A stretch of DNA of 64,000 nucleotides. Source: Antedon bifida (taxonomy: Eukaryota; Echinodermata; Crinoidea; Comatulida; Antedonidae). A program made the position numbers and the translations under genes. Position 1 is the stretch's first letter; each line of letters opens with the position of its first letter. The stretch lies in contig OY727096.1 in assembly GCA_963402885.1 (NCBI GenBank), positions 29,431,820 through 29,495,819 on the forward strand, written 5' to 3'. Under the pieces are notes generated by a model. That model was not told the origin of the DNA. It did not search any database and saw only the letters and a list, made by a program, of their open reading frames with translations. Shown here in pieces: positions 18,701-56,104 of this stretch.

Positions 18701-20652
18701 ATGTGGTCATTATTGGTCAGTAAACAGAGTCCTACAACAATATCCATACATAGTTCTAGATATTACGGAAATTCGGCCAATTTATGGATGTACAGAAATG
18801 AAGATAAATAACGTGTACTACAGAAATAATGTACTGTATACAAACTACACAAAATTATAATATTTTTAATTATGGGGAAAAACACAATATTATATATACA
18901 GACAGAATATAGTTAGTAATACTGTACATTCGAATGAAAGTTCATACGTGCTAGTTAATAGAAAGTCACTTATCTACATAAACATCATAGGATTCTTCTG
19001 ATGAAGACATGTGTAACATGTCAAAAATTCAAGGTATGTTGAATTGTGTGCTGTATAATATTATATAATAATATATTTTATAATAATTAGTTAATAGTAA
19101 ATACTGTACAGTTAGCAATACAATAGTCAAATTGTTAATGTTTTAGTAACAAATGTAAATTAAATGGAAATAGAAAGTGAAGTAACAGGAAGAAATGTTG
19201 TTAATGAAGGTTTACAAATGTGATGAATTTTTAACCAATAAATTCTGTTCATGACAATAAAGATTTATCTGTACATATTTTTAAACTGCAAGATTTTAAC
19301 CACGAAAGTAATAGAATTAAACTTACCATTATTTAAAGAATGTTATTACTACTACAGTAAGCTGCATTCTAGTGAAGTGTTTCATCTTGAAAAGTGGCTG
19401 TGATGTCAGGAGAAAAACAAAATCAACAAATTTAGTACAGAAATGTTTATATAGCATATAGCACAAACTTATGCACTTGTCAATTGTATGACCCACTATA
19501 CGACCCCCGGGAGAGGTGCGTCATGGGTGCGTCATTTACATATAATTACTGACGCAGGGGTGCGTCAAAAAACCTAGATGGTACGTCACATCAATGAACA
19601 AGGTGTGTCAATGTCCGTCACTTTACCACCCACCATATCATAAACAACATGGTCACAGTGCGTCAAAATGGGTGCGTCATGGTCACCTAAAGGTAAGTCA
19701 CATTTTTGACGCACGGGTGTGTCATGGTATTCAAAGGTATGACGCACATCGGACAAATGACGCACCTCTCCCGGGGGTCGTATAGTGGGTCATACAATTG
19801 ACAAGTGCATTACAGAGAGATAATAAAATGATTACAAAAATGTTTAAATTCTCTTGAAAAATTGTAGGCCTAGGCCTATATATCTTTTCCTAGTAGGTCA
19901 TACAATTGACAAAAAAGTGCATTATGGTGACTTTTTTTTTTAACATTATTAAATAATTTTGACATTTTCAAGTAATTTTAAAACAAAATCAACATTTGTA
20001 AACCAGACACCGACAGAACAGAATAATTAAAAGAGAGGTGATATACTAATCAATACAGAGACAGAGAGAGTGCCTAGCTAGAATAGTAGTAGCTAGCCAT
20101 CATATCTAGGCCTAGTGATTTTTTTTACATTATTAAATAATTTTGACATTTTCAAGTAATTTTAAAACAAAATCAACATTTGTAAACCAGACACCGACAG
20201 AACAGAATAATTAAAAGAGAGGTGATATACTAATCAATACAGAGACAGAGAGAGTGCCTAGCTAGAATAGTAGTAGCTAGCCATCATAGCTAGTGATTAT
20301 TACAGTATATGGTCTTGTTGTACCTGGCCTAGTTGCTTGGCATAGGCCATATAATGTATAGGGCCTACTGATAGGCTAGGCCTATCGCTAGGGCATGTGT
20401 CATGTGACCATTACCGCCACAGACAGTTTCGACTTTGACAACTTCACTTGTGATACAGCGTGTAGTCCAATAGGACTAGAGTAGTAGTAGCTAGCCTAGC
20501 AAGGGGACTAATTATACATCAGGAATCTCAGTATCCTGTTTTAAACCTTCACTTACCCTCTTAACAGACTTTATTTTAATGTCGAAGTAGAGTAGGCCAA
20601 AAAAGAGGCCTAGCTCTCGACGATGCGATCTCTGTTCTGTAAACAACTCCAT
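12716..20652 (-). CDS. Kelch-repeat protein with long disordered insert
   Basis: Exons in order of transcription: 20557-20652, 17697-17990, 16982-17216, 16500-16652, 15075-15224, 13647-14641, 13253-13364, 12716-12768. All junctions are GT-AG and in phase, giving 695 residues. Exons 2-5 encode five kelch blades, each with a His near the start, a double Gly and a conserved Trp (IYVFGG..LWRY, LYIFGG..LWSY, MYIYGG..LWLY, IWIYGG..LWKW, MFIFGG..LWTF). Exon 6 is about 330 residues, polar and Pro/Asn/His-rich, with a Cys cluster (CTECN, then CNPCYKCG) that may bind zinc. Exon 7 returns to a blade-like MYLIGGKEGG..MWKC. Kelch propellers bind protein partners, but I see no BTB, F-box or EGF domain and cannot name the orthologue. 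The start is uncertain: the ATG at 20652 has a good GCCATGG context, while another in-phase ATG (19327-19329) also abuts a donor. Confidence 0.82.
15511..15534. mobile_element. 24-bp palindrome of the micro-insertion type
   Basis: CATGGAGGAAAT then ATTTCTTCCATG is nearly perfectly inverted and resembles the elements at 49407, 53233 and 55439. Its flanks ATACAC and GTACAC match at five of six bases, so a target duplication is only possible. It lies in a kelch-gene intron. Confidence 0.5.
18560..18573. promoter_or_regulatory. Possible RFX X-box
   Basis: GTTGCCATAGTGAC fits the RFX palindromic consensus (RYYNYY, spacer, RRNRAC). A weaker relative, GTTGCTATGGTGAT, follows at 18614-18627. Both lie in the first intron of the kelch gene. 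Short sites like this occur by chance. Confidence 0.25.
19472..19809. mobile_element. MITE with about 50-bp TIRs and TTA target duplication
   Basis: This is a 338-bp element whose ends (TGCACTTGTCAATTGTATGA and complement) are inverted repeats of about 50 bp with no mismatch that I can see. TTA flanks it on both sides (19469-19471 and 19810-19812). The interior is built from many GTGCGTCA/TGACGCAC motifs. A TTA duplication is typical of PIF/Harbinger-class insertions. A fragment of the same end sits at 19890-19925. Confidence 0.85.
19943..20300. repeat. Two-copy tandem duplication, 184-bp period
   Basis: The segment starting ACATTATTAAATAATTTTGA at 19943 repeats at 20127 almost without change through GACACCGACAGAACAG and GCTAGCCATCAT. 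The second copy lacks 8 bases near its end (AGCTAG in place of ATCTAGGCCTAG). The near-identity implies a recent event. Confidence 0.9.
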
Positions 20653-22512: not shown

Positions 22513-23442
22513 ATGAATTCTACCGAAATCGAATCGTCAACAACGGTGACAATAATATTCAGGACTGTCATTTTGTTCATCATTATGCTTTTTGCAATAG
22601 TCGGCAATTCCTTAACTCTGGGTATAATCTACACAGTGGAATCACTTTGGACAAAAACGTATGTCTTTGTTGCAAATCTAGCAATCGCGGATCTTTTAGT
22701 TGGACTATTAGTTATGCCTATTGTTCTTACTGCTTCTATAAGTGACAGATGGCCATTTGTACAAGACTGGATCTGTGAGTTATCTTCGGCTATGAATGGG
22801 CAGTGTTGTCTAACAAGCATAGCTTCTTTATGTGCAATAGCAATTGAACGGTATCATTCTATTATCAACCCTTTACATTACGAATCCAAAATGAGCAAAC
22901 GAAATGTTATCATTTTGTTATGTTGGACATGGATTCAGCCTTTTATTTTCATCATCCTCGGACTGGGAAAGGTCGGATATGTTCCTTATTCATTTATTTG
23001 TCTGCCTAAGTGGCAAGACAACGCTATTCTTGCAATGTCCGTGTATGTTTTGTGTGTATTTATTCCGATTTTATTAACAATCAAACTGTATTACCATATA
23101 TGTAAGTTAACTTTCCAGCATCTGAAACGTGTTCAAAACGTTACAACCATTGCATCGTTGACAAGTAGGCCTAGGCCTAATTTGTTTTATAGGTCTAAGA
23201 TAAAATCGGCATTTGTGTTTGCAATTGTCATTGGCACTTTTATATTGCTGTTGTTGCCATACCAAGTTGTTGTGATGTGCCAGTCAAGAGGAGTGCACTT
23301 ACCAAATGGATTTAAAACGTTTTCAATGTGGTTGGCGTTTATGACATCTTCATGTAACCCAGTGATATACTGTTTAATGAATAAGACATTTAGAAACGGA
23401 ATAAACACAGTTCTACGTAGAATTCGTCGATCGCTACAGTAG
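22513..23442 (+). CDS. Class A (rhodopsin-like) GPCR, single exon
   Basis: The 309-residue intronless receptor has seven membrane segments: roughly residues 15-37, 50-72, 86-110, 131-152, 172-195, 232-254 and 264-288. Hallmarks are GNS in TM1, LAIAD (56-60) in TM2, Cys88 and Cys163 for the extracellular disulfide, ERY (112-114) for DRY, Pro249 in TM6 and NPVIY (282-286) in TM7. A glycosylation site, NST, lies at residues 2-4. TM2 and TM3 resemble amine-type receptors. However, the position equivalent to the amine-binding Asp in TM3 is Asn95, and TM6 lacks the usual CWxP, so an aminergic ligand is doubtful. The third intracellular loop contains T217-P222, encoded by a TAGGCCTAGGCCTA string. 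The ligand is unknown. Confidence 0.93.
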   Translation: MNSTEIESSTTVTIIFRTVILFIIMLFAIVGNSLTLGIIYTVESLWTKTYVFVANLAIADLLVGLLVMPIVLTASISDRWPFVQDWICELSSAMNGQCCLTSIASLCAIAIERYHSIINPLHYESKMSKRNVIILLCWTWIQPFIFIILGLGKVGYVPYSFICLPKWQDNAILAMSVYVLCVFIPILLTIKLYYHICKLTFQHLKRVQNVTTIASLTSRPRPNLFYRSKIKSAFVFAIVIGTFILLLLPYQVVVMCQSRGVHLPNGFKTFSMWLAFMTSSCNPVIYCLMNKTFRNGINTVLRRIRRSLQ

Positions 23443-32000: not shown

Positions 32001-34806
32001 CATACATGAGATAAAGGAGAGACAAACTCTGTCATTTTTTAAATGTTGATAATTGCGGTAGTTTTAATCTCTTGCCTCTAGTATTAGGTGAAATTTCTTT
32101 TTGGATATGCTGGAATAAACATCCAAATAATGTATACATTTGCCCTGTAGGCTCTAGACTCTTTTTTTTTGTTTCCACACCTGGAAAGAAACTGGCATAC
32201 CCACTCTTCTGTGATTTTTTTTAATAGAGTTCTGCGGTGTGACGTCACAACGATAGATGGCGCTGCGTGGTTGCTACCAACCAAAAATGCGTTCAACGCT
32301 ACTATGTTGATAAACTATATAAATCTGTATTTCTATCAAATTATGTATCTTAGCTTGATTTTTTTTAACTTAAACTGCAGTTGGAGAATAAATAGATTAT
32401 TAAAAACAAATATTTAGTGATCTTTTGAAATTTTAGTTTTAAAATGACTACTTCAATAAGCCTATTCTAAACCATTGGTGACCTTGGAGTCACTCAGACA
32501 GGACACATTTTTTGGTTGGCTAGCAACCATGCAGCGCGACCTACCGTTGTGACGTCAGCACTGCAGAATTCTATAGTGCTCTCTATAGTTTGACGTGGCT
32601 TAACACCCTTTCCCTTACCTGCCTGTTAGATAGCCAATGACAGAAGCTGCATAGCATGCCTGTTATAAATAACATAGAAGTTAATATTTGAATAGACTGT
32701 TTTGTTTGTAAATTGATATGAGGAACGAGTTCAGACTACTTTCTGGAATTAAACAAAAACTATAATTATTTTAAAATCCATTCCTTTTTAGTGATCATGA
32801 AAGATGTAAAAGACTTTAATCACTTTCAGACACGATGATACTTTTAATTTTTAAAATGTCACAGGTTAAAGTTTTAGCCAAGCAGTGCTAACATTCATAG
32901 AACTAGCAGTCTGATCAGAAGTGCGAGGAAATCGGAAGTATTGCAATATCAACTGTATTTACAAAGATTTCCCACACAATTTAGCATTGACAATGGGTGC
33001 GATTGGTGGTTGTACAGAGTTAAAATACGATTGCCCATCTTTTAAAAAACTACATGTGGATTTTAATAATACAGGTGATGTTTTCTGTATTGATGAGAAG
33101 GTTCTATGCTAGTAATTAGAAACCAAGTGCTTCAATGAGCTATGTTTTCTTCAAATTAATGTTCAAAACATACTGCCTGCTCATTCCTCATTCCATAATA
33201 GTTGATGCCGGATGTTTGCATTGCAGCTGCTAACTCAGCTACTGGATATCCCACAATTCCAAACACATAATTGATGCCCTAATAGTCAAAATAAAAAGCA
33301 GATTAATAATGTTTTGATACATTGATCATCATCATCATTACAAAACATCAGATTAAAAAAAACGGAGGTGTTTGTTTTTTTGGGTGTAATATGGTAACAT
33401 GGATAATCAAATAAATACCCCTAGATATGAAAAATACAACACAATAAATATCAAGAAGTGATAAAATACAGTAGCAATTGTATCAAAATGCTAGGTGAAT
33501 TGTCAACCATATCAATCAATGAATTCTTTTACAATATAATTTTTCAAAATGGTGTTCTATTGGTGGAATACAGTATAAAGTTCATGTACAAACAGTATGC
33601 CCTATATAGAAAAAATTAAAATTAAAAATAATTATATTCTGTATAGGTTGAGCTAGCTTTTGCTAATGCACTTTCTCACTGTACTGAGATTACCTTTAGG
33701 ATTAGTCTCAGGTCACGGTAAGTAATCAGTGACTGAACCTAAACAACAATATAATTTATTCGAAATGATGTTCTATTGAGGGAATTTAAACAAATTACAG
33801 TGTAATGTAAAGTTCATGTAGAAACAGTATGCCCTATATAGAAAGACCTACATTAAAAACAACAAACTATGCTGTATAGGTTGCTAATGCACTTTCTCAC
33901 TGTACTGAGATTACCTTTAGGATTAGTCTCATGTCACGGTGGTAAGTAAAGATAGTCTGACCTTGATGCAAAGGGCATTGGACACAAGAGACAGTGTTCT
34001 TGTCAGTCATGTTTGTATGCCTTAAGTACTATGCATGTGTTAAATGATGCACCCTTGCCATAAATTAATTGAAATAGTGTAGAGGAAGGGCAGTCACAGT
34101 CACGGTCATGTAACCCATTATTAGTGTTAAGTGCAATTTGCAGAAATAATTGTGCACAGAATTCCTAGGCTAAATAAAACCGTAGAGCAACCATTTGTAA
34201 CAACTGCAGTCACAGACCTTTATTAATATTAGCCAAATAAGGTTTATCGCAAATAGCGTGCATGATGTATTATCTCTGGAAAACCAAATATTTAGGCTAA
34301 AACATTGTTTGCAAAACAATCTTTCAAACACCAAAAAACATCAAATTTCTGTTTGCACACAGAGAAACATTTATATAACACTAGCTTTTGTATTTAGTTT
34401 ACTGGCCCTAAGCTAGGGGCCATACCCATGATGGGCCATATGGAATTACCTTAACTTAATCCTTTTAAATGATTCAATGAGTTAGCCTAGGCTTTATACT
34501 ATAACTAGGCCTATATTAGTTTGGCCTATGTCAGTCTGTGGTACAGAGGCCTAGGTTAGGTGGCTACTAACTAGGCTCTAGTCTCTAGTAGGCCTCTAGC
34601 CTAGAGGCCTAGGCCTAGTAGGCTAGCCTCTTCATTAGGTAGGACTAGGCCTAAGTCACAAGTGACTAGGCTAGGCCTAGAGGCCTACCTAGGCCTAGCT
34701 AGCTTCATCATGATGGCATTTTAAATATCGTTTAAATTATAACCTGGGCTTTAAGTGCCTCTGATAATACGAAATTTCCATCTACAGTGTCCTCATCTTC
34801 TGCCAT
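26005..34806 (-). CDS. HACL1: 2-hydroxyacyl-CoA lyase 1 (peroxisomal), complete, 17 exons
   Basis: This thiamine-diphosphate enzyme cleaves 2-hydroxyacyl-CoA to formyl-CoA and a shortened aldehyde in peroxisomal alpha-oxidation of phytanic and 2-hydroxy fatty acids. Exons: 34744-34806, 33174-33278, 32619-32659, 31746-31826, 30751-30823, 30455-30532, 29893-29987, 29624-29736, 29295-29430, 29024-29129, 28733-28822, 28251-28412, 27719-27819, 27316-27474, 27043-27147, 26491-26683, 26005-26037. All are in phase and total 577 aa (human 578). The catalytic Glu54 is in MRNEQA. The cofactor/Mg site runs from [10 protein letters not shown] (452) to NNN (481). The C-terminus [10 protein letters not shown] ends in a canonical PTS1 signal, SKL. 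ATG 34804-34806 is the first in-phase start and gives the family N-terminus. Confidence 0.97.
26285..26409 (-). mobile_element. hAT-like MITE copy in the last HACL1 intron
   Basis: The end GCGTTACGCCACTG at 26396-26409 matches the end of the element at 38447-38597. Interior pieces (TTCTAAAC, AGGGGC/GGGCCCC, CTCCAG) also match. The left end is too decayed to place exactly, so the start is approximate. Confidence 0.55.
28055..28315 (-). repeat. 74-bp tandem copies of the end of HACL1 exon 12
   Basis: The last ~60 coding bases of exon 12 plus its donor are repeated in the following intron. AGTTCATAGG (+ strand) occurs at 28271 (exon), 28197 and 28123, so the period is 74. A partial fourth copy is near 28058-28080. 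Each copy keeps a donor-like TTAC or TTAT motif. Confidence 0.85.
28925..28992 (-). pseudogene. Decayed duplicate of HACL1 exon 10
   Basis: Read on the - strand, this stretch matches the exon 10 core (29024-29129): CTTGGTG, ATTATGCATTTTGGT and AACCACCA. It carries a TAG stop where the exon has a Trp codon, and it lies in the next intron. It is non-functional. Confidence 0.75.
31150..31290. repeat. GTTT-rich dispersed repeat
   Basis: GCGTGTGTTTGTTTGTTTGT followed by TTAGCAGGATTACTCAAAAA lies in a HACL1 intron. From memory, this combination is a widespread repeat in marine invertebrate genomes. Its class is not determined here. Confidence 0.4.
31493..31594. repeat. Three-copy 33-bp tandem repeat
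   Basis: Exact copies of a 33-bp unit (TGCAGGGGGTTGTATTTACA plus ACTCCTTGCTGGA) stand in a row inside a HACL1 intron. There are no spacers, so this is a minisatellite and not an array of another kind. Confidence 0.9.
32222..32576. repeat. Fold-back element in HACL1 intron
   Basis: The arms at 32222-32290 and 32503-32576 are inverted copies. The left arm has GTGACGTCACAACGATAG and GGTTGCTACCAACC; the right arm has GGTTGGCTAGCAACC and CCGTTGTGACGTCA. The interior of about 210 bp is unique. It is probably a small DNA transposon. Confidence 0.65.
33550..33950. repeat. Two-copy tandem duplication, 221-bp period
   Basis: ACAGTATGCCCTATATAGAA, TGCTAATGCACTTTCTCACT and GTACTGAGATTACCTTTAGG occur in both units (for example at 33661 and 33882). 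The copies differ by small indels. They lie inside the second-largest HACL1 intron. Confidence 0.85.
34490..34710. repeat. TAGGCC-rich palindromic patch
   Basis: A dense run of CTAGGCCTAG-type words, read alike on both strands, lies just inside the first HACL1 intron. A similar patch lies at 1734-1806. Confidence 0.7.
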
Positions 34807-38431: not shown

Positions 38432-41400
38432 TTAAAGGGTTTGCTCCAGTGGCGTAACACGCAGGCCTAAGGCCCCTGGTTTAGAACCATCCAACGCATT
38501 TTCGACATTCGATTTATTCTGGGCACTGCTCAGGGGCCCCATAAGCTCCAGGGCGCCTGGGTTTAGCCAGTTAGTGCTCATAGCCGTTACGCCACTGGTT
38601 TGCTCCTCATCTAGGGTAGCCATCCTGTGATCCTTTCTTTTCCTGAAGTTCCTATTCGTTAAGTCTCTCATCATCATCTTGAAGCTTCTGTAACCCCTGA
38701 AAAATTGTTTTATCATAATAATAATAATAATAAAAAAAAATAATAATCTATTAATTGTTTATTTGAAATTAAACATTAAAATCTACCTTCTTATGAATTG
38801 TCTTGTATCTAAGCCACATATCTTTACAACATAGTAGCTTAGTCTGTAGATGTTGTAGAACGCCATGACTAACAACATGATGAAATTCACACACCATTTA
38901 ACTATCATATATAAAAGTCCTAGCACTGGGTAAACAACCCTGGAACGAGATTATTATTGTTATTGTCGCTGTCACTGTTATTGATACTGTTACTGTAAAA
39001 TAAGATTATTTAATACTCGATCATGTGGATATCTCGATGACATTTTCCGCCAACCCCGTTGTAAACCCATAAAACAGATAAACCAATTGTTCCGGTAATT
39101 TATAACTAGGCCTAGCTATATTTTGAAATTAGAATAACACGAACTGTTCAGTTTTAAAATTTAGAGTGGTTTTGAGAGGTGGTCGCTTACGATTGGTAGT
39201 AGATGTTGTTTGGACGTGTTTAGTCATAAGCTGTAGCCTATACGGTACTACATTTGCGGTGGATTAAAGGTTGCTCCGACTTTATAGTTGGCGATTGCTA
39301 GAACCTCACAGGACATGGATTCTGCACATACGATATCTAATCTGGTATAAATCACAATACGGTAGGAATTCGTTTTAACAAGTGAAAATCCTACCTGTCC
39401 ATAAAGATGCAATTAAAAAATGTCGTGATTTCGCACAAAATCACCATGACCCATCTTTTAAGAATGTTCAGATACAGATTAATGATATAACCGCGATATT
39501 CAGGCCTATAAGATACAATTTTAGGAAGTGTGTAAAATAACTTGAAACGAGATACAAATACTGTGTAAATATAATTTTAATTAAATATTTACAGTAGGTC
39601 GTAGCTTCCTAGAATTCCTATTCAAAAGGATTTGCAAAGATCTGGTTCCATTGCCCTCTAAATATGAAATCGGCAGAGTAATTCTGCATAGAACTAATAC
39701 ATGATGCACATCACGCGAAATTTGCTATGGATACTACAGCTGTTCTGGTAAAAATAGCCTGACTAGGTAATCCCCGTTTACAAGCGAAAATCCTACCTTA
39801 GCATGAATTGCCTTGTATCTAAGGCAAGTAGCTTTAGAAGACCATAGCTTAGTTTGGTGATGTTGTAAAACGCCTTTGCTAAAAACAAGATGAAATTAAG
39901 CACAAATGCTAGAAATGAGGAATGAACAAACCTGAAACGAGATTATTATTACCATTATTATTTAATTAGTAATTTTATAGAACCATCAAAAGGTGGTCGC
40001 TTTTTGGAAGGTGGTCGTTTACGAGAGATGGATAGACTGATATCTGAGTAAAGAGATGCATTTGCACACATTTTCTGGCGATAGTAACTCACTGGCAAAT
40101 TTCATTACTACATTAGCTGGTGTTGGAATTTGGAATTGCACAGTAACACTATCTAATCTAATATCTGGTATAAATCTCCATACGGTAGGAATTCGTTTTA
40201 CAAGTGAAAATCGTACCTGTTCCTAAATCCTCTGCATATTTCATATACAAATATCGTGAATGCACACAACTTCTCCTCGAACCATCTGAGAAGAATATTC
40301 AAATATCGGTTAATGAAATAGATAGAGATTAAACGTTGTATAGTTATACAATAGGGACTTTACGAAACACGACGGTTAAGGGAGGACGACGAATATCCTG
40401 TGTTTGCTAGAGCGTAAAATCATATACAGTCAATAGCCGTTTTATTTTATTTTATTAGTTACGAAGACGACGACGACCGACGGTATCTCTCTCCCCGCCC
40501 CCCCCCCCCCCCACCCCCTGTCTAGTGGCGAATGGCCCCTCTGAATCGCTTGGCTCTGGTGGAACAGCATAGGCCTAGCCTTCCTCTGCTATGAGCCTCG
40601 CATTCAAGCAGAATGTATTGCTTTTAACACAGCCATTTTAACCCAATAAAAATGTTATATCGTTAAACAATTAAATTAGAAGTTCAAGTATTAGAGTTTT
40701 GAAATGTCCACGTTTAAGTGTAATTTGAACTGTATATTTAAGGTTATATGTACATTATTTCTATTCGTTCTCCGTAAACGGGAAAATGGGAACTTTATCG
40801 TCAAAAAGTTAAAACACTGAATTTCCCTTAAGCTCCGCCCACTTTGTTAAAGCTTATGCATACATTATTCATGAGCACCGTCCTGTGGCTTCCCGTCGTG
40901 TTTCGTAAAGTCCCTAATAAAGTATACACGACGATTTTATATACCAAAACGGTGCATCATGATACAAAATAATGTAATTAATTAATTTTCTACATAATCA
41001 TTAAGTATAATACATAGTTAGATAGCAATCTTGAAACGATGGTCTGGACCTGCATACGGAAGTTTGTACACATGTTTGTTTTATTTCTATCTGTAAACAT
41101 AAGTTTCTCGCAACAATGGTATCACAAGAGTGGATCACACGTAAAACAAAAATAACAAGAACATAAGTTTAAATATATATTGGCCCCCTGAAAAATTTAT
41201 TTTTTAAAATGTTTTTTGTTGAATATGCCATTGTAACTAATGTCACATAGGCCTAATAGTTATTCACTTTGACCAAAAATTGGAACGAAAAATATATTTA
41301 CCGAAAAAATAATTGAAAGCAAAAAAAGAGCCAAATTTGGTTGAATTTAGCCGTTTATTTTGTCATTATATAAATGAAAACATTATTTTGTTCGTTTTTT

Positions 41401-43424: not shown

Positions 43425-44821
43425 AGTAGGCATGTTGAGCCGTGAAATGTGCAGAAAGTCACATTTTTGCAAACAACCACATTTTGTGCAAACATGTTGC
43501 CTTCAAATGTGCAAACAACCACATTTGCGCAAACATGGCACCCTCAAATGTGCAAATCTGTATAATCCACTAACGTGCAAACATCACGCCGTTAAATGTA
43601 AAAAAACGATAAGTTCAAATCAGATCAATTCTTAATATGTCACGGGTTTTTCTAACAATGTTTTCAAGATATAGCCACTTAGACCTACATAGTTAATTGT
43701 AGTAGCCTACAGGCAGAAATAATCTAACACAATCATGTCCGGGGATGCAGGTCTGACACGTGGTCGCTGCTTGCTAGAGATGGTAATCAATACCGTTGAA
43801 ATCGAAGTTCCTTATAGTTGTAGGAAATCCACAAAACATAACGAACTGAGTTCATTAGATTTTATATTATTTTATTTAAAATGTATTTCTGTTATGCGCG
43901 ATTTGAACAATTTATCAATTTGAATTTTGGAAGATTTTCTTGCGCAAATCTTTTCTTTAGCAATTAAATAAAATGAAAAATACTATAGATGATGTAGGTA
44001 TGAATATGGTATAGGCCTAATCCTTAGGCGAATGTAAATGTTAAGCGCGATTTAAAATAGTGCACAGATTTCGTTGCGCAATTTGAATCTGCACAACATT
44101 GTGTAATTTGAAATTACGCAAATTGTATTCATTTCCTGCATTTTTTTTATAAATGTATACGATATGAACTTTTGGTTTTATCAAATACTGAAAATACCAT
44201 GCGATATTCGAAATTGTCTGCGCAATTTGAATATTGATTACATTTGCGCAAGAAAATCCTCACAATTTCAAATTGCATAAATTGTTCAAATCGCGCATAA
44301 CAGAAATACATTTTAAATTAAATAATATAAAATCTTATGAACACAGTTCATTATGTTTTGTGGATTTCCTTTAAAATAAGAGGACAACTATAAGGGACTT
44401 CAATTTCCACGGTATTGATTACCATCTCCAGCAAGCAGCGACCACGTGTCAGTCCTGCATCCCCGGACATGATTGTGTTTTTTTTTTCAAAACAGATTAT
44501 TTCAGAATGTACTACAATAAAATATGTAGGCCCTAAGTGGCTGTATTGCTTCATTGTTAGAAAAACCCGTGACTATTTAGAATTAGGTTATCATTTTTAA
44601 TAAACGAATTGAAAAAATGATAGAACACATTTGTAGAATTTCATTTGCACATTTGACGTCAACATTGATCGTTTTTTACATTTAACGGCGTGATGTTTTT
44701 GCACATTAGTGGATTATACATTTTTACAGATTTGCACATTTGAGGGTGCCATATTTGCACAAATGTGGTTGTTTGCACAAATGTGACTTTTTGCACATTT
44801 TACGGCTCAACAAGGCCTACT
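43425..44821. mobile_element. 1.4-kb palindromic (fold-back) element
   Basis: The left arm (43425-43952) and right arm (about 44240-44821) are diverged inverted copies of over 500 bp around a 290-bp loop. Shared landmarks are AGTAGGC..TGTTGAGCCGT at the tips, several ACATTTGTGCAAAC words, CATCACGCCGTTAAATGT, ATGTCCGGGGATGCAGG and TATTTCTGTTATGCGCGATT. The bases next to the tips are ATT on both sides, a possible 3-bp target duplication. Each arm has a matching short open frame (MSGDAGLTRGRCLLE), which looks like arm symmetry rather than a gene. Confidence 0.85.
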
Positions 44822-48275: not shown

Positions 48276-49406
48276 TCTTTAAAGAGAAACATTGAAAACA
48301 TATTCTTGGGATGATATGGCTCAATTGTAAATATCTTGCGTGCTGTAAGTGGCAGATTTGTTTCTGCTGCTGTTGTTTGTTAAAATAAATAAATAAATAA
48401 ACCAGCTAATTTATGCAAATTATAAAAAGCATTTCTTTAAAAAATAATTGTATTTCCACACGTATTATTATTAACGTTCTATATTCACTGATTGTTATGT
48501 ATTTTTTTTGGATTTTTGTGAATTTCTTCTGTTTTTTTAAAGTTGTTTCATTGCAGGACCATATTGAAAAACAGAAATTTTGTGATCTTTTATGAATTAT
48601 GTTATCCTGCCTAAATATGTTTTAATAAATAAAAAAAATAAAATTAGTACCGCCACAAAATATGTTGCCATCTCTGGAATACGAATGATAAATTTGCAAA
48701 AGTGATGTTTATGCCCAGTGATTCAAAGATTCAAGGACATTCGTGTTGTAATTACATTGTCAGTAACCAATTAGTGTATGAAAATTAGTACTCCATTATA
48801 CAAAAATTAACTGTTATATCTCAACCAATACCAATGCTTCAGCACATGACTATGCTGGCATCTGTTAATAATTTACTTATGTATTACAATCATAGGCCAA
48901 ATCTAGACAAGCGAAAACTTGTATTTGTCTTTCTGTCAAATAAGTTAAGTAATGTAATTATTATTTTATATTTGACAATGACATGTGATTGTACCGCCCA
49001 TTTAATGTTGGGGAAGGTGCAGAGTTGACATCCAAATCAGAAGTTTTTCTCGATCGCCTTCCTCCCCTGTCATGACGCGTTAATCACTGTGTTTTGTATA
49101 TAAAAAAAACCCAGAAAAACCAAAGCCATCATTATTTCCCATTAGAATTGTATAAATATGCAATATTCAGCTACGTGTCACTGATTACAGCATTGTTAAA
49201 TTCGTTTTCAATGAATTGCCAGGTGCCACCATAAAAGTTAGTTTCACGCCAGAAATTTGATTGGTAAACTCACTGGATGTAACTAAGTTTAATTATCATT
49301 AATTATCATTCTTTTGTATTGGTACATTTTTTTAAATAGGCCTATAGAAATACTAAAACATTTTGAAAAATATAGAATATTATTATTAGGTGTATATATG
49401 TAGTAT

Positions 49407-49432
49407 AATGGAGAAATAACTTATTCTCCATG
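49407..49432. mobile_element. 26-bp palindromic micro-insertion with 7-bp duplication
   Basis: AATGGAGAAATAA then CTTATTCTCCATG forms an inverted pair. GTAGTAT stands on both sides (49400-49406 and 49433-49439). Confidence 0.75.
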
Positions 49433-51734
49433 GTAGTATTATTATTAAAGCAAGTAGTAAAAAGTAGATTTTATGAGAGAGTGGAAGTAAAACTAAATTT
49501 AATTTTCATAAAATGTGTATCCCGTGTTAATAACGATTACAAATATAATTTTTCCGTTAATGCAACTCTGTTTTTTTTAATTATAATATTCACCCGATTC
49601 TGGAAGCTAGCAGATAGCGTCTAACTGACTACTGACAGAGACATCGTGTATTGCAATTAGGCCCTATTTAATACAGTTAGACTAGGCTAGATGATGTGCG
49701 CATGATCTCAGCATGGTCTCTTGAAGGTTGACCACAAAATACCAAAACACAATGAAATGACTGCTGTGTAGGCCTATATTATAGTCTACTTTAAAAAAAA
49801 AGTATTATAATTCGTTAAACATTATAGAATTAACCTGTATTATAACCATGTGTTATATACTTTATTCAGTAGTCAGTTTATTAATTATTTACTCTTGAAT
49901 CAAGTTTTGACATTTAAAAAAAAAGTTGTATTAAAATTAATTAATTTAATGCAAAATAAATGTTCCAAACATGTTTTCATAATTAACGTACGAAAATAGG
50001 TGTATTATGCAAAAGAAAAAATAAATACAAATCATCTACTAAAAGTTTGTCGCAATGTTCACTGCTCATGTTTGGTCTTAGTTAGGGGGGAAACAATACA
50101 CTGGGACACTTCCAGCAGGCCAACAGCAACCGGGTCGTATCCACAAAATGTTGGGATTCACGCTCCAGTAGAGGCCTACCCATTTAGCCTTCTTGCAATC
50201 AAATTATACGCATATAATTTAATATTATCTTTACAATTGAACACAGGTTTTGTTGGTGCTTAAACAACACTGTTTCAAAAGAGAGAACATGTGACATTAC
50301 TGTATTGTTACCAATTGAGACCTGTAGCGACACGCAGATTGTACATTTCTAAAACTACTGTGTTACTCATATATTAAACTTATTTAATCGTTTTATATAA
50401 AAAAAAAAAAGCTTCTCAAACTTGAATTTCTACCATTTTTTCCGTTTTGAACAAAATTGTTCGTTCTAATACCAAAGACTAGTGTTTTTGTAGACACATA
50501 TAGACTACACGTTAAAGAAATCTACCCTTAAGGAATTGATAATTATAATTACGGTATTATTACAATACGAGCTCCATATCTGAATCTGGTAGCTACTGTA
50601 AAAAATAATCATACACCATCATAATTATAGGCTATCACATACAGGTTGCATATGATACACAGTTGATCAACAATCAAGTTACTTACACCATCATGCAATG
50701 TCTTGATTCAAATGCAGGACAACACTTTCCAACACTGTTCAAATCTCAAAGATATACTTGTAAATGAAGTGAAAAACGTATTCCTTCTGTTTTTATAGTA
50801 CTGGTATTAAGTAATACAAAAGATTACTTTTTCGTCTAATATAATAGGTCAGACAGAGGTACAAATGATTAACCTGTCATACCCAAAAAAGGATTTAGGT
50901 ACTTAAATAATAACTGCAAAGTTGGTTATTCTATATACAGCATTGTTTAACACTTGAAACTTTGCCAACCTCTGGTTCAATTTTTTATCTATCTGTGGCT
51001 TAAGTTTGAACCACACAATAATCCATATTATAATAACCATAGAGAGAAAATAACTCCAATAATAATGGAAATTGTGTTATCACAGCTCATCTAACACTTT
51101 GTAAATCACTGCTATATTATTACTGTATCACTTTCATTAGAACACCAGAAAATAATTATTGTGATAATAATATATAATACGTGATTTTAATACATTACAT
51201 GATAAACATATTGCAGATTGCACCATTGAATGATTATGAGATTATGAGAACCCTGAATAGCCTGCTGATAAGAATAAGTATAGTAAAAGTACATAAAATA
51301 TAATATATGTTTTAACAGACAGGCATAATTTTAAGAACATGCCGCTCAAACAGGCCTAATTTCGTTACAAAAATATTAATCATATTATTTAAACATAAAC
51401 AATTTTGTAAATCTGTAAAAAAAAGATATGCATACAAAATGATAATGGAAAGCACACGGTTACCAAGTTTAAATGATGAGAATGGTGTAAACAAAAGTTG
51501 GTTAGGCTATATTTTATGGATAATAATTTTCTTTGTACATAAAAAATGTTAAAAAATGACAATAACAAATGCAAATGTTTATAAAAACAGGGAAAATTCT
51601 TGAAGCAAATGTTTAGGCCTATAAAAGAAATTGAATTAATTAAAATTTATACCCAATCTGGGTAAATTCAGTTTTTTGAATTATTAGTTATTATTCTCTC
51701 TCTCTCTCCTATTATTTTCTTAAACAAGACCAAG

Positions 51735-53200
51735 ATATAAAGTTAACAATTATTGTAAAATTAATCATAACATTTTCTTTTTAATCTTTAGAATCACAAC
51801 ATGATATCAATAAAAATGGAGGAGGCAATGAATTTTCTACATGTCCACCTCCCTAAGATTACATCTTTGTCTGAGTAGGCCTAATAATTAATTATTTTAT
51901 TTATTTTTACTATTAGGAAATCTTCTATTCTCGATGTCGGAATTACAAAATATATTTTATAGGCTAAAAGCATATCAGGTATAGTATAGCACTTGTTTTA
52001 CTTTATTATGGCCCTGTTTTTTTTTATTACATATACTAGAAATATATATATTGTTCTGTAAAAAACAAAAGGGATACATAGAATATAAATTGATATGGAT
52101 GGACTTATACAGTAGTACTGATGTCCCTTTAAATATTTTTTTCATAATTTGATTTAAAATTTAAATAATTAGACTGTAAAGTTGCTGTAGATTATTCCAT
52201 ACATAGTAGATATAATTATATTATTGTTGTAATTGTGTAAATCGCTGAAATTGTGATTTCATACGACATATATATATATAGGCCTATATGATATATTGAA
52301 ACGTGGCAGCTATATATAGGCCCGCCACGTATCGCCTAAAATTTACAATGTTAAACTTATTATACAATACTGTACTTAGTATTGTATTTTCAGGGATAGC
52401 CACTCCACAATATTTTTGCTTTTCTTATATATCTATATTATCTTGTACTAACAAATGTTATTGTTAAAACTGAAATTATATAAACACATATTAGGCCTAT
52501 GGCAATTTAAAAAAATGTACACATACTCCAATCTTCTGTCGTCTAAAAATCGAAGTAATTCATGTCTCGGGTCTATTCTACAGTCGCAGCAGATTGACTT
52601 CTTTATCAGTTTTTTCATTGCTAATACGTTTACACTAGGCCTATACCACGGAATTAATTAAATAATTCATATATATGTTTTTAACCTACAAAACCGCAGT
52701 GCACAGGTGTAATTGTTGCGTTGTTTATTTATTTTGATCTTAAAAACTACAACATAAATACAAAATATTTTTTAGGTAAATCATTATTCTCATTTCAACA
52801 AACCACGTAAAACAGCAACACATTTTCAATATCATTTCCAAGTTCTATATATTGTTATATTTCTATAATAATTTTGAAATAACTTTGAAAACCAATAGTA
52901 CAAATAATCAATACAATTTACTTCAATCCTCTATTTTTTAGCAGTTCTATCATAGAGAAATAAGAAAGGTATTTTTAGCTATCGCCGAAAAAATCATGCA
53001 TATTATAAAGTATGTGGCTGTCATTTTAAACTAGGAATTGCAATATTATTTTATAATAGGTCTAACAATACATTAACAAGCTGCAATTGCACATACAACT
53101 AAACAAGATAACCAGCGTAATATATATCTATTATGATTTATTAGGGGAAAAAAGACTTACTGTGTGTTATATGTCTCTAGGCCCTATATATTATATGAAC
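51735..53200. repeat. Segmental duplication, copy 1
   Basis: Two blocks, 51738-52185 and 52965-53200, recur in the same order at 54168-54604 and 55278-55560. Shared words include AACAATTATTGTAAAATTAA, TTGATATGGATGGACTTA, AGCTGCCATTTTAAAC-like text and TACATTAACAAGCTGCA. The middle parts differ. Confidence 0.85.
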
Positions 53201-53232
53201 ACATTTCTATGATACAAAAGTAATGATTTCAT

Positions 53233-53259
53233 CATGGAGAAATAAGTATAGTCTCCGTG
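53233..53259. mobile_element. 27-bp palindromic micro-insertion with 7-bp duplication
   Basis: It starts CATGGAGAAATAAGT and ends GTCTCCGTG. ATTTCAT flanks it exactly on both sides (53226-53232 and 53260-53266). Confidence 0.75.
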
Positions 53260-54603
53260 ATTTCATTTAACAGAAAAGAACAGCTATAAGAACAAAATTA
53301 ACAATAGCATTTTTATTCGTACATATTGTTACAAATTTCAATATTATTTTAATATTGTACATAGTCTATTTTTGTAATTCTTAATTGTAAGTTGGAGAGA
53401 AACGCCCTAAATTTTAAAAATCTATAGATTTTATAACAACTTATACTTTTATATATGAATATGATACACACATGCCTACTGAACGGGAAAATCGGCAACG
53501 TGACATCCACGTGCATGTATTATTGGGGTCAAAGTTGTTTTTCAATTTTCACCATAAAAATTTACAGACATTGTTAGACCTTATTCGATACGGTAACTGA
53601 TTCCAAATGGGAATAATCCTTTTAAAATATGATAATTTATGAAATTCAGTTTTGTAGAAGGGGTTTCTACTTTTTATAAGCTGTGCTTCAGAGATTCACC
53701 CTTTCCATTCTTTTGTTTTGTAATGATTATTTATGATTTTGTGAATGGAAATAAAGAAACGAACAAACAAACACTTAGGCCTATCGGACATAAGAACATA
53801 CTGGTCAGATGCAGTTCTTGTAAAAAGGTTACATAATTATCAATTTGAATATCGTAATGGCCATATTTGCACCTACTACTTACTGAGTAGGCCTACGATA
53901 TGAAGCATTCTTATCTTAGAATACTAATATTTTGTCATTTTATGTATTTTGGACGAAATAATAATATTGTATTATTTTATGAATATTAAGAATATTCTAA
54001 TCTAATTATATGCAAATTGAAATGTGTTGATATACATTACATATTAATTTAGTTACTTGTAGTGCGCTTCCTTAAACTGAATTATTTTTCAAAGTAATAC
54101 AGGTATTACATGTATTTATACTTTCAATACTTTCAAAAACCAATAAGAATTAAGTTTTTTAATTAAGAAGTTAACAATTATTGTAAAATTAATCATAACA
54201 TTTTCTTTTTAATCTTTAGAATCACAACATCATATTAATATTATAAAATTGAGGAGGCAATGAATGTACACCTCCCTAAGATTATATTATTGATTATATC
54301 TTTGTATGATTAGGCCTAATAATTTATTATTTTTACTATTAGGAAATCTTCTATTCTCCATGTTGGAATTACAAAATATATTTTATAGGCTAAAACCATA
54401 TCAGGTATAGTATAGCACTTGTTTTACATTATTATGGCCCTGGTTTTTTGTATTACTAGAAATATATACATTGTTCTATAAAAAACAAAAGGGATACATA
54501 GAATATAAATTGATATGGATGGACTTACACAGTGCTGGTGTCCCTTTAAATATTTTTGTTTATAATTTGATTTAAAATTTAAATAATTAGACTGTAACGT
54601 TGC

Positions 54604-54645: not shown

Positions 54646-55438
54646 TTTTAAATATATATATCCATTTTATCATCATACAATAATAATATATCGGTATAAA
54701 ATGTTTGAACCAGTCCATATATAAATATACAGTATGCATTATGGTACTGAGTACTTTCATAGTATATATTTTACAACATTTTAAAGCTTGTTTTAAAATT
54801 ATTCTATGGCCTAAACAACAATATCAATATAGTCCATCAATATCTAGTGATAGCCGACAACTGATATACTGAAAATCAATATATATGTATATTTAGGTGG
54901 TTTTAAAAAAAAATTATTATTAAAACATTTTGAAGTTATATATAGTATAACCTTCACATGTCTCTCTACAAATAGAAGAACCATATGAGCATTAATTGAA
55001 TAGCATGAATTATAATAGGACAATGTGGTATTTTCCTTTACATTAACTTATTTTTTTTTTATTTTATGATTATCAGATGACTGCTAAACACTCTACGCAT
55101 AATGTATCACTATAGTTGTTTATACACAATTATTTGCTTTACATATTCGAGATAATATATTGTATCTTCTGCCATCTTTTCCTTCCATTTACTTTATCAA
55201 TATAATGTCACCTTTTATTCGTAATGTAATACTGTATTTAAAAGAGTTCCATAGAGATATGGACTTATGCAACTCATAGAGAAATAAGAATGTTTAAAAG
55301 GTATTTTTAGCTGTCGCCAAAAAAATGCATGCATATTATAGGCCTAAAGTATGGTTATAGCTGCCATTTTAAACTAGGAATTGCAATATTGTATATAGGC
55401 CTAACAATACATTAACAAGCTGCACTTGTACATACAAC

Positions 55439-55472
55439 CATGGAGAAATAAGTTAGGACTTATTTCTCCATG
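55439..55472. mobile_element. 34-bp palindromic micro-insertion with 7-bp duplication and empty site
   Basis: CATGGAGAAATAAGT, TAGG, then ACTTATTTCTCCATG: perfect 15-bp inverted arms. ATACAAC flanks it on both sides (55432-55438 and 55473-55479). Duplication copy 1 has a single ATACAAC at 53093-53099 and nothing inserted. Confidence 0.85.
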
Positions 55473-56104
55473 ATACAACTAAACAAGATAACCAGCTGTG
55501 TACTATAGAGCTAGTATGATTTATTCGAAAAAAAATATTTACTGTGTGTTATAATTATGTATCTAATTTATAGGTCCATGGTTAGTCAAGCCTAAAAAGG
55601 GGAATACCCGTTACTATCAAATTGAAACGACAACAATGTTCTCTTTATTATTTTGTTCTGTCGCGCTCTGTTAATTATGCCTAAATATCTCTAACATTGT
55701 GTTTTTCAAAAGCTGAATTTTGATTTATTCTGTAACCTTCAAAACGTAGGCTTAGCAAAACCATAATCATAGTATTTTCAAAGTGTTGGTCATTGGGTGA
55801 ACTCCCTTGATCTTCAAATCCTAATTTTTGCGACAAAAATCATGTCTATACAGTACATGCTGTAGAAGCTGAGATATGAGCAGAAATCTGTTTTTTGAAA
55901 AACAACCATTTTGATTTTCAAAGTGGTTGCCATTCGGTAAACTTCAAATTGTAATTAGAGTCCTTGGCCCTCAAAACATATACTTTGTCACCAAAATCAC
56001 TTTCATATAATATGATGTAGGAGATATGAGCAAAAACCTGTATTTTATTGCGGCTATTTAAAAAATCCAAAAGGGCGGCTTTCCCATGACATATGACCTG
56101 GAAC

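Follow-up and report, generated by a model that had tools for sequence, protein, structure and literature searches.

What kind of event leaves a 34-bp palindrome between two copies of the same 7-bp sequence, and is the palindrome a minute transposon in its own right or the trace of something larger? The locus that raises this question lies in the window, a 64,000-nucleotide stretch of the Antedon bifida genome (C9:29431820-29495819 of the assembly searched here, which has 315,563,634 bases in 27 contigs). An earlier note had claimed that the palindrome stands between two ATACAAC sequences in copy 2 of a segmental duplication, and that copy 1 carries a single ATACAAC; the sequence and the alignment of the copies showed exactly this. 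The insert, here called scar A, reads CATGGAGAAATAAGT-TAGG-ACTTATTTCTCCATG, with arms of 15/15. The two copies of the duplication are identical at 214/229 ungapped positions in the block around the site and at 411/433 ungapped positions in an upstream block, and copy 1 aligns at the site with one ATACAAC and without the insert. The alignment suggests that the insertion came after the segmental duplication, a loss from copy 1 being the less simple alternative. A possible older, decayed end is present in both copies, which would make it older than the duplication if it is a scar; no duplication was recognised in the flanks of its occurrence in copy 1. The coordinates of these features are given in Table 1.

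Table 1. Palindromic inserts and related sites in the window (positions in the window).
Feature	Position	Strand	Description or basis
Scar A, left 7-bp target duplication ATACAAC	55432..55438	.	sequence reading
Scar A, 34 bp	55439..55472	+	left 20 nt of parent terminal repeat + right 15 nt
Scar A, right 7-bp target duplication ATACAAC	55473..55479	.	sequence reading
Scar A, empty site with single ATACAAC in the other duplicate copy	53093..53099	.	alignment of copies
Possible older decayed end CATAGAGAAATAAGA, 2 mismatches	52951..52965	+	copy 1 of duplication
Same possible older decayed end	55275..55289	+	copy 2 of duplication
Scar B, ATTTCAT + CATGGAGAAATAAGTATAGTCTCCGTG (27 bp, 53233-53259) + ATTTCAT	53226..53266	+	insert scan, parent ends
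Scar C, GTAGTAT + AATGGAGAAATAACTTATTCTCCATG (26 bp, 49407-49432) + GTAGTAT	49400..49439	-	insert scan

One reading offered in the earlier note was that the palindrome is the footprint of a larger element with 7-bp duplications, to be checked by looking for a longer element with the same ends and a transposase. Such an element was found. We read three copies of it (6452, 6447 and 6453 bp), each defined by a pair of ends about 6.45 kb apart. All three carry the same perfect 34-bp terminal inverted repeat, CATGGAGAAATAAGTTAGGAAGGAGTAACATCGA, which starts with the letters of the palindrome, CATGGAGAAATAAGTTAGGAAGG; its outline, CATGGAG...CTCCATG, has the CA...TG ends of the P superfamily. The copies are flanked by 7-bp target duplications (ATTACAC, CCAAAAC and ATATAAC), in agreement with the 7- or 8-bp duplications of that superfamily. 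In pairwise comparison the copies differ by 7, 7 and 0 mismatches, with 33, 27 and 6 gapped columns in the alignments. Each contains five stop-to-stop frames of 110 aa or more, whose lengths do not change from copy to copy. Because the copies read are nearly identical, the family was probably active recently. The 26-nt end occurs 35 times in the genome, which by position makes 16 pairs and 3 single ends; 13 of the 16 pairs span 6446-6453 bp and the others 3583, 7100 and 10024 bp, the sequence having been read for three of the 16 and the rest being known by their end positions. At C9:27814044-27826956, two full-length-spaced pairs of intact ends follow each other in head-to-tail order, separated by exactly 7 bp; from the positions alone, it looks as if the target duplication of one element had served as the insertion site of the other.

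Three separate open reading frames of the element at locus L009 matched Pfam domains of P-type transposases, namely TNP-like RNase H N (PF21787, 2.5e-24), GTP-binding insertion (PF21788, 1.9e-10) and RNase H C (PF21789, 1.5e-9), and the first of these frames also matched PDB 6p5a (E 5.8e-10). Judged by its sequence, the parent element is a member of the P superfamily of DNA transposons. The 612-aa transposase frame of L009 gave no Pfam match to a THAP domain, which an upstream exon could possibly carry; the N-terminus of the transposase (L009:1388-3226) gave a zf-AD-like match of 23.8 bits, below the Pfam cut-off of 28. No exact inverted 11-mer common to positions 34-500 of both L009 ends, as expected of subterminal inverted repeats, was found. 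On the minus strand, a 313-aa frame (L009:4637-5578), open in all three copies read, showed a weak match to the C-terminal part of the fly P transposase (13/37 residues, E 0.003); going by this sequence, the C-terminal part of the transposase may be a separate, convergent gene.

We conclude, with a probability of about 0.96, that the palindrome in the window is an excision footprint of this 6.45-kb transposon. The transposon would have inserted into one copy of the duplication, doubling the 7-bp ATACAAC, and the transposase would then have cut it out with a long stagger inside the 34-bp terminal inverted repeats. On each flank about 20 nt, CATGGAGAAATAAGTTAGGA, would stay behind as a 3' single-stranded tail; since the two tails would be inverted copies of each other, end joining would make a palindrome between the two copies of the target sequence. 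Compared with the parent ends, scar A consists of CATGGAGAAATAAGTTAGGA (55439-55458) joined to ACTTATTTCTCCATG (55458-55472), with one A, at 55458, common to both. Most simply, the last A of one tail would pair with the T at position 15 of the other, giving 20 + 15 - 1 = 34 bp. Our first hypothesis, in which two 17-nt tails were bluntly joined to 34 bp, was ruled out by this composition. Both copies of the target duplication are kept at scar A and the empty site has one, as in a footprint. The 3' polarity of the overhang is presumed by analogy with Drosophila P, and the spectrum of junctions described below points to repair by end joining of the polymerase-theta type.

The window holds two further inserts of the same kind, scars B and C, in addition to the single insert reported earlier. 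Scar B, just outside the aligned block of copy 1, was resolved by inspection against the parent ends into the left 15 nt, ATAG, and the right 8 nt with one substitution, and the reverse complement of scar C, also by inspection, equals a common 27-bp product minus one base and with one substitution. When the window was scanned for inserts 20-40 bp long that have 8-nt arms (at most 1 mismatch) and exact 7-bp flanks, these 3 inserts came up, whereas 150 dinucleotide shuffles gave 0.15 on average and never more than 2; the pattern of a palindrome with 7-bp flanks thus exceeds chance in the window. A scan for very short partial scars with 7-bp flanks stayed within the range of the shuffles when 4-nt arms were allowed (10 in the window; mean 5.5, maximum 12 in 30 shuffles); with 5-nt arms it gave 4 inserts (shuffle mean 1.0, maximum 3), three of which were scars A-C.

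Beyond the window, the 15-mer CATGGAGAAATAAGT occurs at least 505 times in the genome (254 forward and 251 reverse; repeat counts may be lower bounds), and its reversed control 0 times. The surroundings of 91 of the first 100 sites listed, all on contigs C1 and C7, served as the scar sample; six of the other nine were ends of the three elements read, and three sites were left out. The 91 half-sites form 80 loci, and the search for further copies with matching 7-bp flanks, proposed in the earlier note, did find them: at 33 loci both arms (8 nt, no more than 1 mismatch) are present together with exact 7-bp flanks, and another 8 loci have a single mismatch in the flank. An arm without matching flanks was seen at 14/80 loci, exact flanks without an arm at 4/80, and one end only at 21/80. 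Genome-wide there are 58 two-armed scars, 50 of which were listed. As 470 of the 505 half-sites are not intact ends, the 58 two-armed loci and up to 354 others make about 410 remnant loci, or arithmetically about 25 per paired element, decayed scars such as C being uncounted. An excision origin is not established for every remnant, given the one-ended loci in the sample. At least one pair of 20-nt ends (C15:3329595 and 3329674) is further apart than the two-arm pattern allows. Some loci are probably copies made by segmental duplication, for instance L043 and L044, which share the same flanks and the same junction, and the excision events are therefore fewer than the loci. Three 20-nt ends at C8:22623416, 22642702 and 22661953 are spaced by about 19.3 kb, and these positions suggest a scar copied within a tandem segmental duplication. 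The 34 scars with exact duplications revealed a symmetrised target preference, G/A-T-T-N-A-A-C/T.

The length of parent end kept in the scars was limited. Among the 91 half-sites, 15 nt were retained in 10, 16 in 13, 17 in 45, 18 in 14, 19 in 1, 20 in 6 and 21 in 2; at least 22 nt of the 34-bp repeat were kept in 0/91, and in 0/100 ends of the 50 two-armed scars listed of 58, a set that overlaps the first. Together with the 96 genome-wide occurrences of the 20-nt end against 35 of the 26-nt end, this places the limit at about 20 nt, as for ends bounded by a stagger, here read indirectly from the scars. The limit suggests that the transposase of the parent element leaves an overhang of about 20 nt, compared with 17 in Drosophila. 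The 21-nt cases would be explained if the next base, A, matched by chance or stemmed from the other tail. Against a simple 20-nt picture, the retained ends peak at 17-18 nt (59/91 half-sites) and not at 20; we attribute the peak at 17 nt to TA and TTA microhomology.

The junctions themselves are of the microhomology, blunt or small-insert types found in footprints. In the 33 two-armed scars with exact flanks, the tails overlap by 3, 2, 1 and 0 nt in 6, 8, 3 and 7 cases, respectively, and 9 have extra sequence. Overlaps of at least 2 nt were seen at 14 of the 24 non-insertion junctions; a simple null model in which the ends are trimmed uniformly gave 2.7 on average and never more than 12 in 20,000 runs. 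Some joins contain 6-16 bp of extra sequence, and some lengths are inflated by point mutations in the arms; the 34 scars with exact duplications range from 17 to 48 bp, and their centres differ by junction type. Several products recur. Among the 50 listed two-armed scars (58 in total), a join at TA that gives 32 bp accounts for 15, a 38-bp join of 20 + 18 nt for 7 (e.g., L017, L046 and L073), and the 34-bp product of scar A for 5, that is, the window and four other places; a 27-bp join at TTA is found at 29 exact places genome-wide. The recurrent 38-bp join has no evident microhomology, which counts against the microhomology account.

Such recurrence, with identical sequences of 27, 32, 34 and 38 bp at many places and exact 7-bp duplications, could also be expected if palindromes of 26-38 bp were themselves mobile and were moved in trans by a P-type transposase. 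The scars do have the terminal inverted repeats and target duplication of a MITE, but the complete termini of a parent and a common internal sequence are lacking: at most 20-21 of 34 bp are kept and the centres vary. What recurs is a set of alternative joins between the same two tails of 15-20 nt, and the 6-16 bp of extra sequence in some joins is easier to reconcile with repair than with copying. Deleted copies of fly P are said, in the portion of PMC1562414 available, to require end sequences of at least 138 bp and 216 bp. With no complete terminal repeat or common centre in the scars examined, we rejected this explanation as very improbable. The suggestion in the earlier note that the palindrome is a MITE extreme in its internal deletion found no support in the same evidence, as no scar end examined reached 22 of 34 nt, the centres changed with the junction and the lengths ran from 17 to 48 bp.

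We give just as little credit to the idea that slippage or abortive gap repair shrank an element to its very ends. Internal deletions do seem to exist in this family, judging from the position of the two intact ends 3583 bp apart, and incomplete repair synthesis followed by end joining is known for fly P, as reported in the accessible part of PMC2895639. However, the endpoints of such deletions would scatter through and beyond the 34-bp repeat, whereas those observed stop at 20-21 nt, with no exception in either of the two overlapping sets of ends. Finally, a local palindrome made by polymerase template switching, unrelated to transposition, would suit an insert that can form a hairpin and is present in just one of the duplicate copies but has practically no chance of being correct, since it is refuted by the genome count of the 15-mer (at least 505 against 0 for the reversed control), the 7-bp flank duplications at the scar loci, and a transposon with the same ends.

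The excision reading can be compared with known systems of the P superfamily. In Drosophila, according to the sections available of PMC7776569, the cut made by P transposase leaves 17-nt 3' tails, CATGATGAAATAACATA, and junctions of P{wa} excision repair, as far as described in the parts available of PMC2895639 and PMC5466332, retain at most 17 nt per end and are joined at AT/TA microhomology, bluntly or with inserts. The crinoid scars resemble these footprints of Drosophila melanogaster P in that both target duplications are kept and the nucleotides retained per end are capped at a fixed number, and their junctions are likewise at TA/AT microhomology, blunt, or with inserts. They differ in the limit of about 20 nt instead of 17-nt tails and in the 7-bp instead of 8-bp duplication; moreover, the fly scars come from a laboratory assay, whereas the crinoid scars are natural and were read in an assembly. 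The fly repeat is 31 bp with the cut at 17 and the crinoid repeat 34 bp with an inferred limit at 20, which leaves 14 bp inward of the cut in both. AGG follows the cut in fly P (head sequence in the available part of PMC9682801) and the inferred cut in the crinoid element. The fly tail is identical to the left 17 nt of scar A at 13/17 positions and to the right 17 nt at 11/17; this likeness is modest, since 12 of 127,968 17-mers of the window also reach 13/17 and, with CATG held fixed, 3312 of 200,000 permutations equal the likeness of the left end. These coincidences of repeat geometry, AGG and tail letters support the position of the cut without proving it.

Galileo, a member of the P superfamily in Drosophila, is described in the text available of PMC4168063 as having mostly 7-bp duplications and a palindromic target preference, GTANTAC. 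The crinoid element shares the 7-bp duplications, and its own target preference resembles that of Galileo; its 34-bp terminal repeat contrasts with the very long, foldback-type repeats of Galileo mentioned in that source. For zebrafish Pdre2/THAP9, the available part of PMC10983969 gives a 13-bp terminal repeat, CATACCTGTCAAC, an 8-bp duplication and a THAP domain. Both are deuterostome elements with a P-type transposase and a terminal repeat that starts with CAT, but the crinoid element has a 34-bp repeat and a 7-bp duplication, and THAP is present in the zebrafish one. The P-MITEs of Anopheles gambiae, in the excerpt available of PMC1562414, have P ends of less than 100 bp per side, a central region unrelated to P and 8-bp duplications. 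Like the scars, they are short non-autonomous relatives of P with target duplications; the crinoid scars keep at most about 20 nt per side and have no central region.

Excision footprints of P elements are already known, and the parent element is a new member of a known superfamily. No P transposase named as crinoid was present among 120 listed of 122 protein matches and among the 22 of a second search; this negative carries little weight, as many of the matches are unnamed and the search needs common 5-residue words. A literature search, thin on subscription papers, found neither a genome-scale account of such P scars nor a description of a P element from a crinoid. The examples we found of P end sequences left on excision are from flies and cell assays; here they are natural, and hundreds of end remnants in one echinoderm assembly allow the cut position and the spectrum of break repair to be read directly. 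The scars record past jumps of a transposon family whose end remnants far outnumber its surviving copies, and without the parent element they could easily be mistaken for a new class of 30-bp transposons. At somewhat better than even odds, we would extend this to a wider picture, in which the cut of a P-type transposase lies about 20 nt, instead of 17, from the ends of its element; a zf-AD-like domain may replace THAP, and the element may have a second gene in the opposite orientation. Its jumps would be mainly conservative and sealed by end joining, leaving about 25 scar loci per paired element, and the scars would document germline double-strand-break repair in nature, so that the cut site and the rules of repair could be read off them without experiment.

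Other features of the window were noted in passing. A 34-bp imperfect palindrome lies between two 8-mers, CAAACAAC, at 43470-43519 (mean of 0.05 in 150 shuffles); it is probably due to chance or the scar of another family. A 151-bp insert at 38439-38605 has ends CAGTGGCGTAAC and an 8-bp flank repeat, GTTTGCTC, and presumably resembles a MITE of the hAT type. Two further inserts, at 19481-19800 and 32240-32557, are each about 300 bp long and have inverted ends and short repeats in their flanks (CAATTG and TGACGTCA, respectively). The open reading frame at 45042-45830 matches the reverse-transcriptase zinc-binding domain zf-RVT (2.1e-7) and is probably a LINE remnant, and a receptor open reading frame at 22513-23442 aligns over 62% of its length with an Antedon mediterranea protein, at 98% identity.
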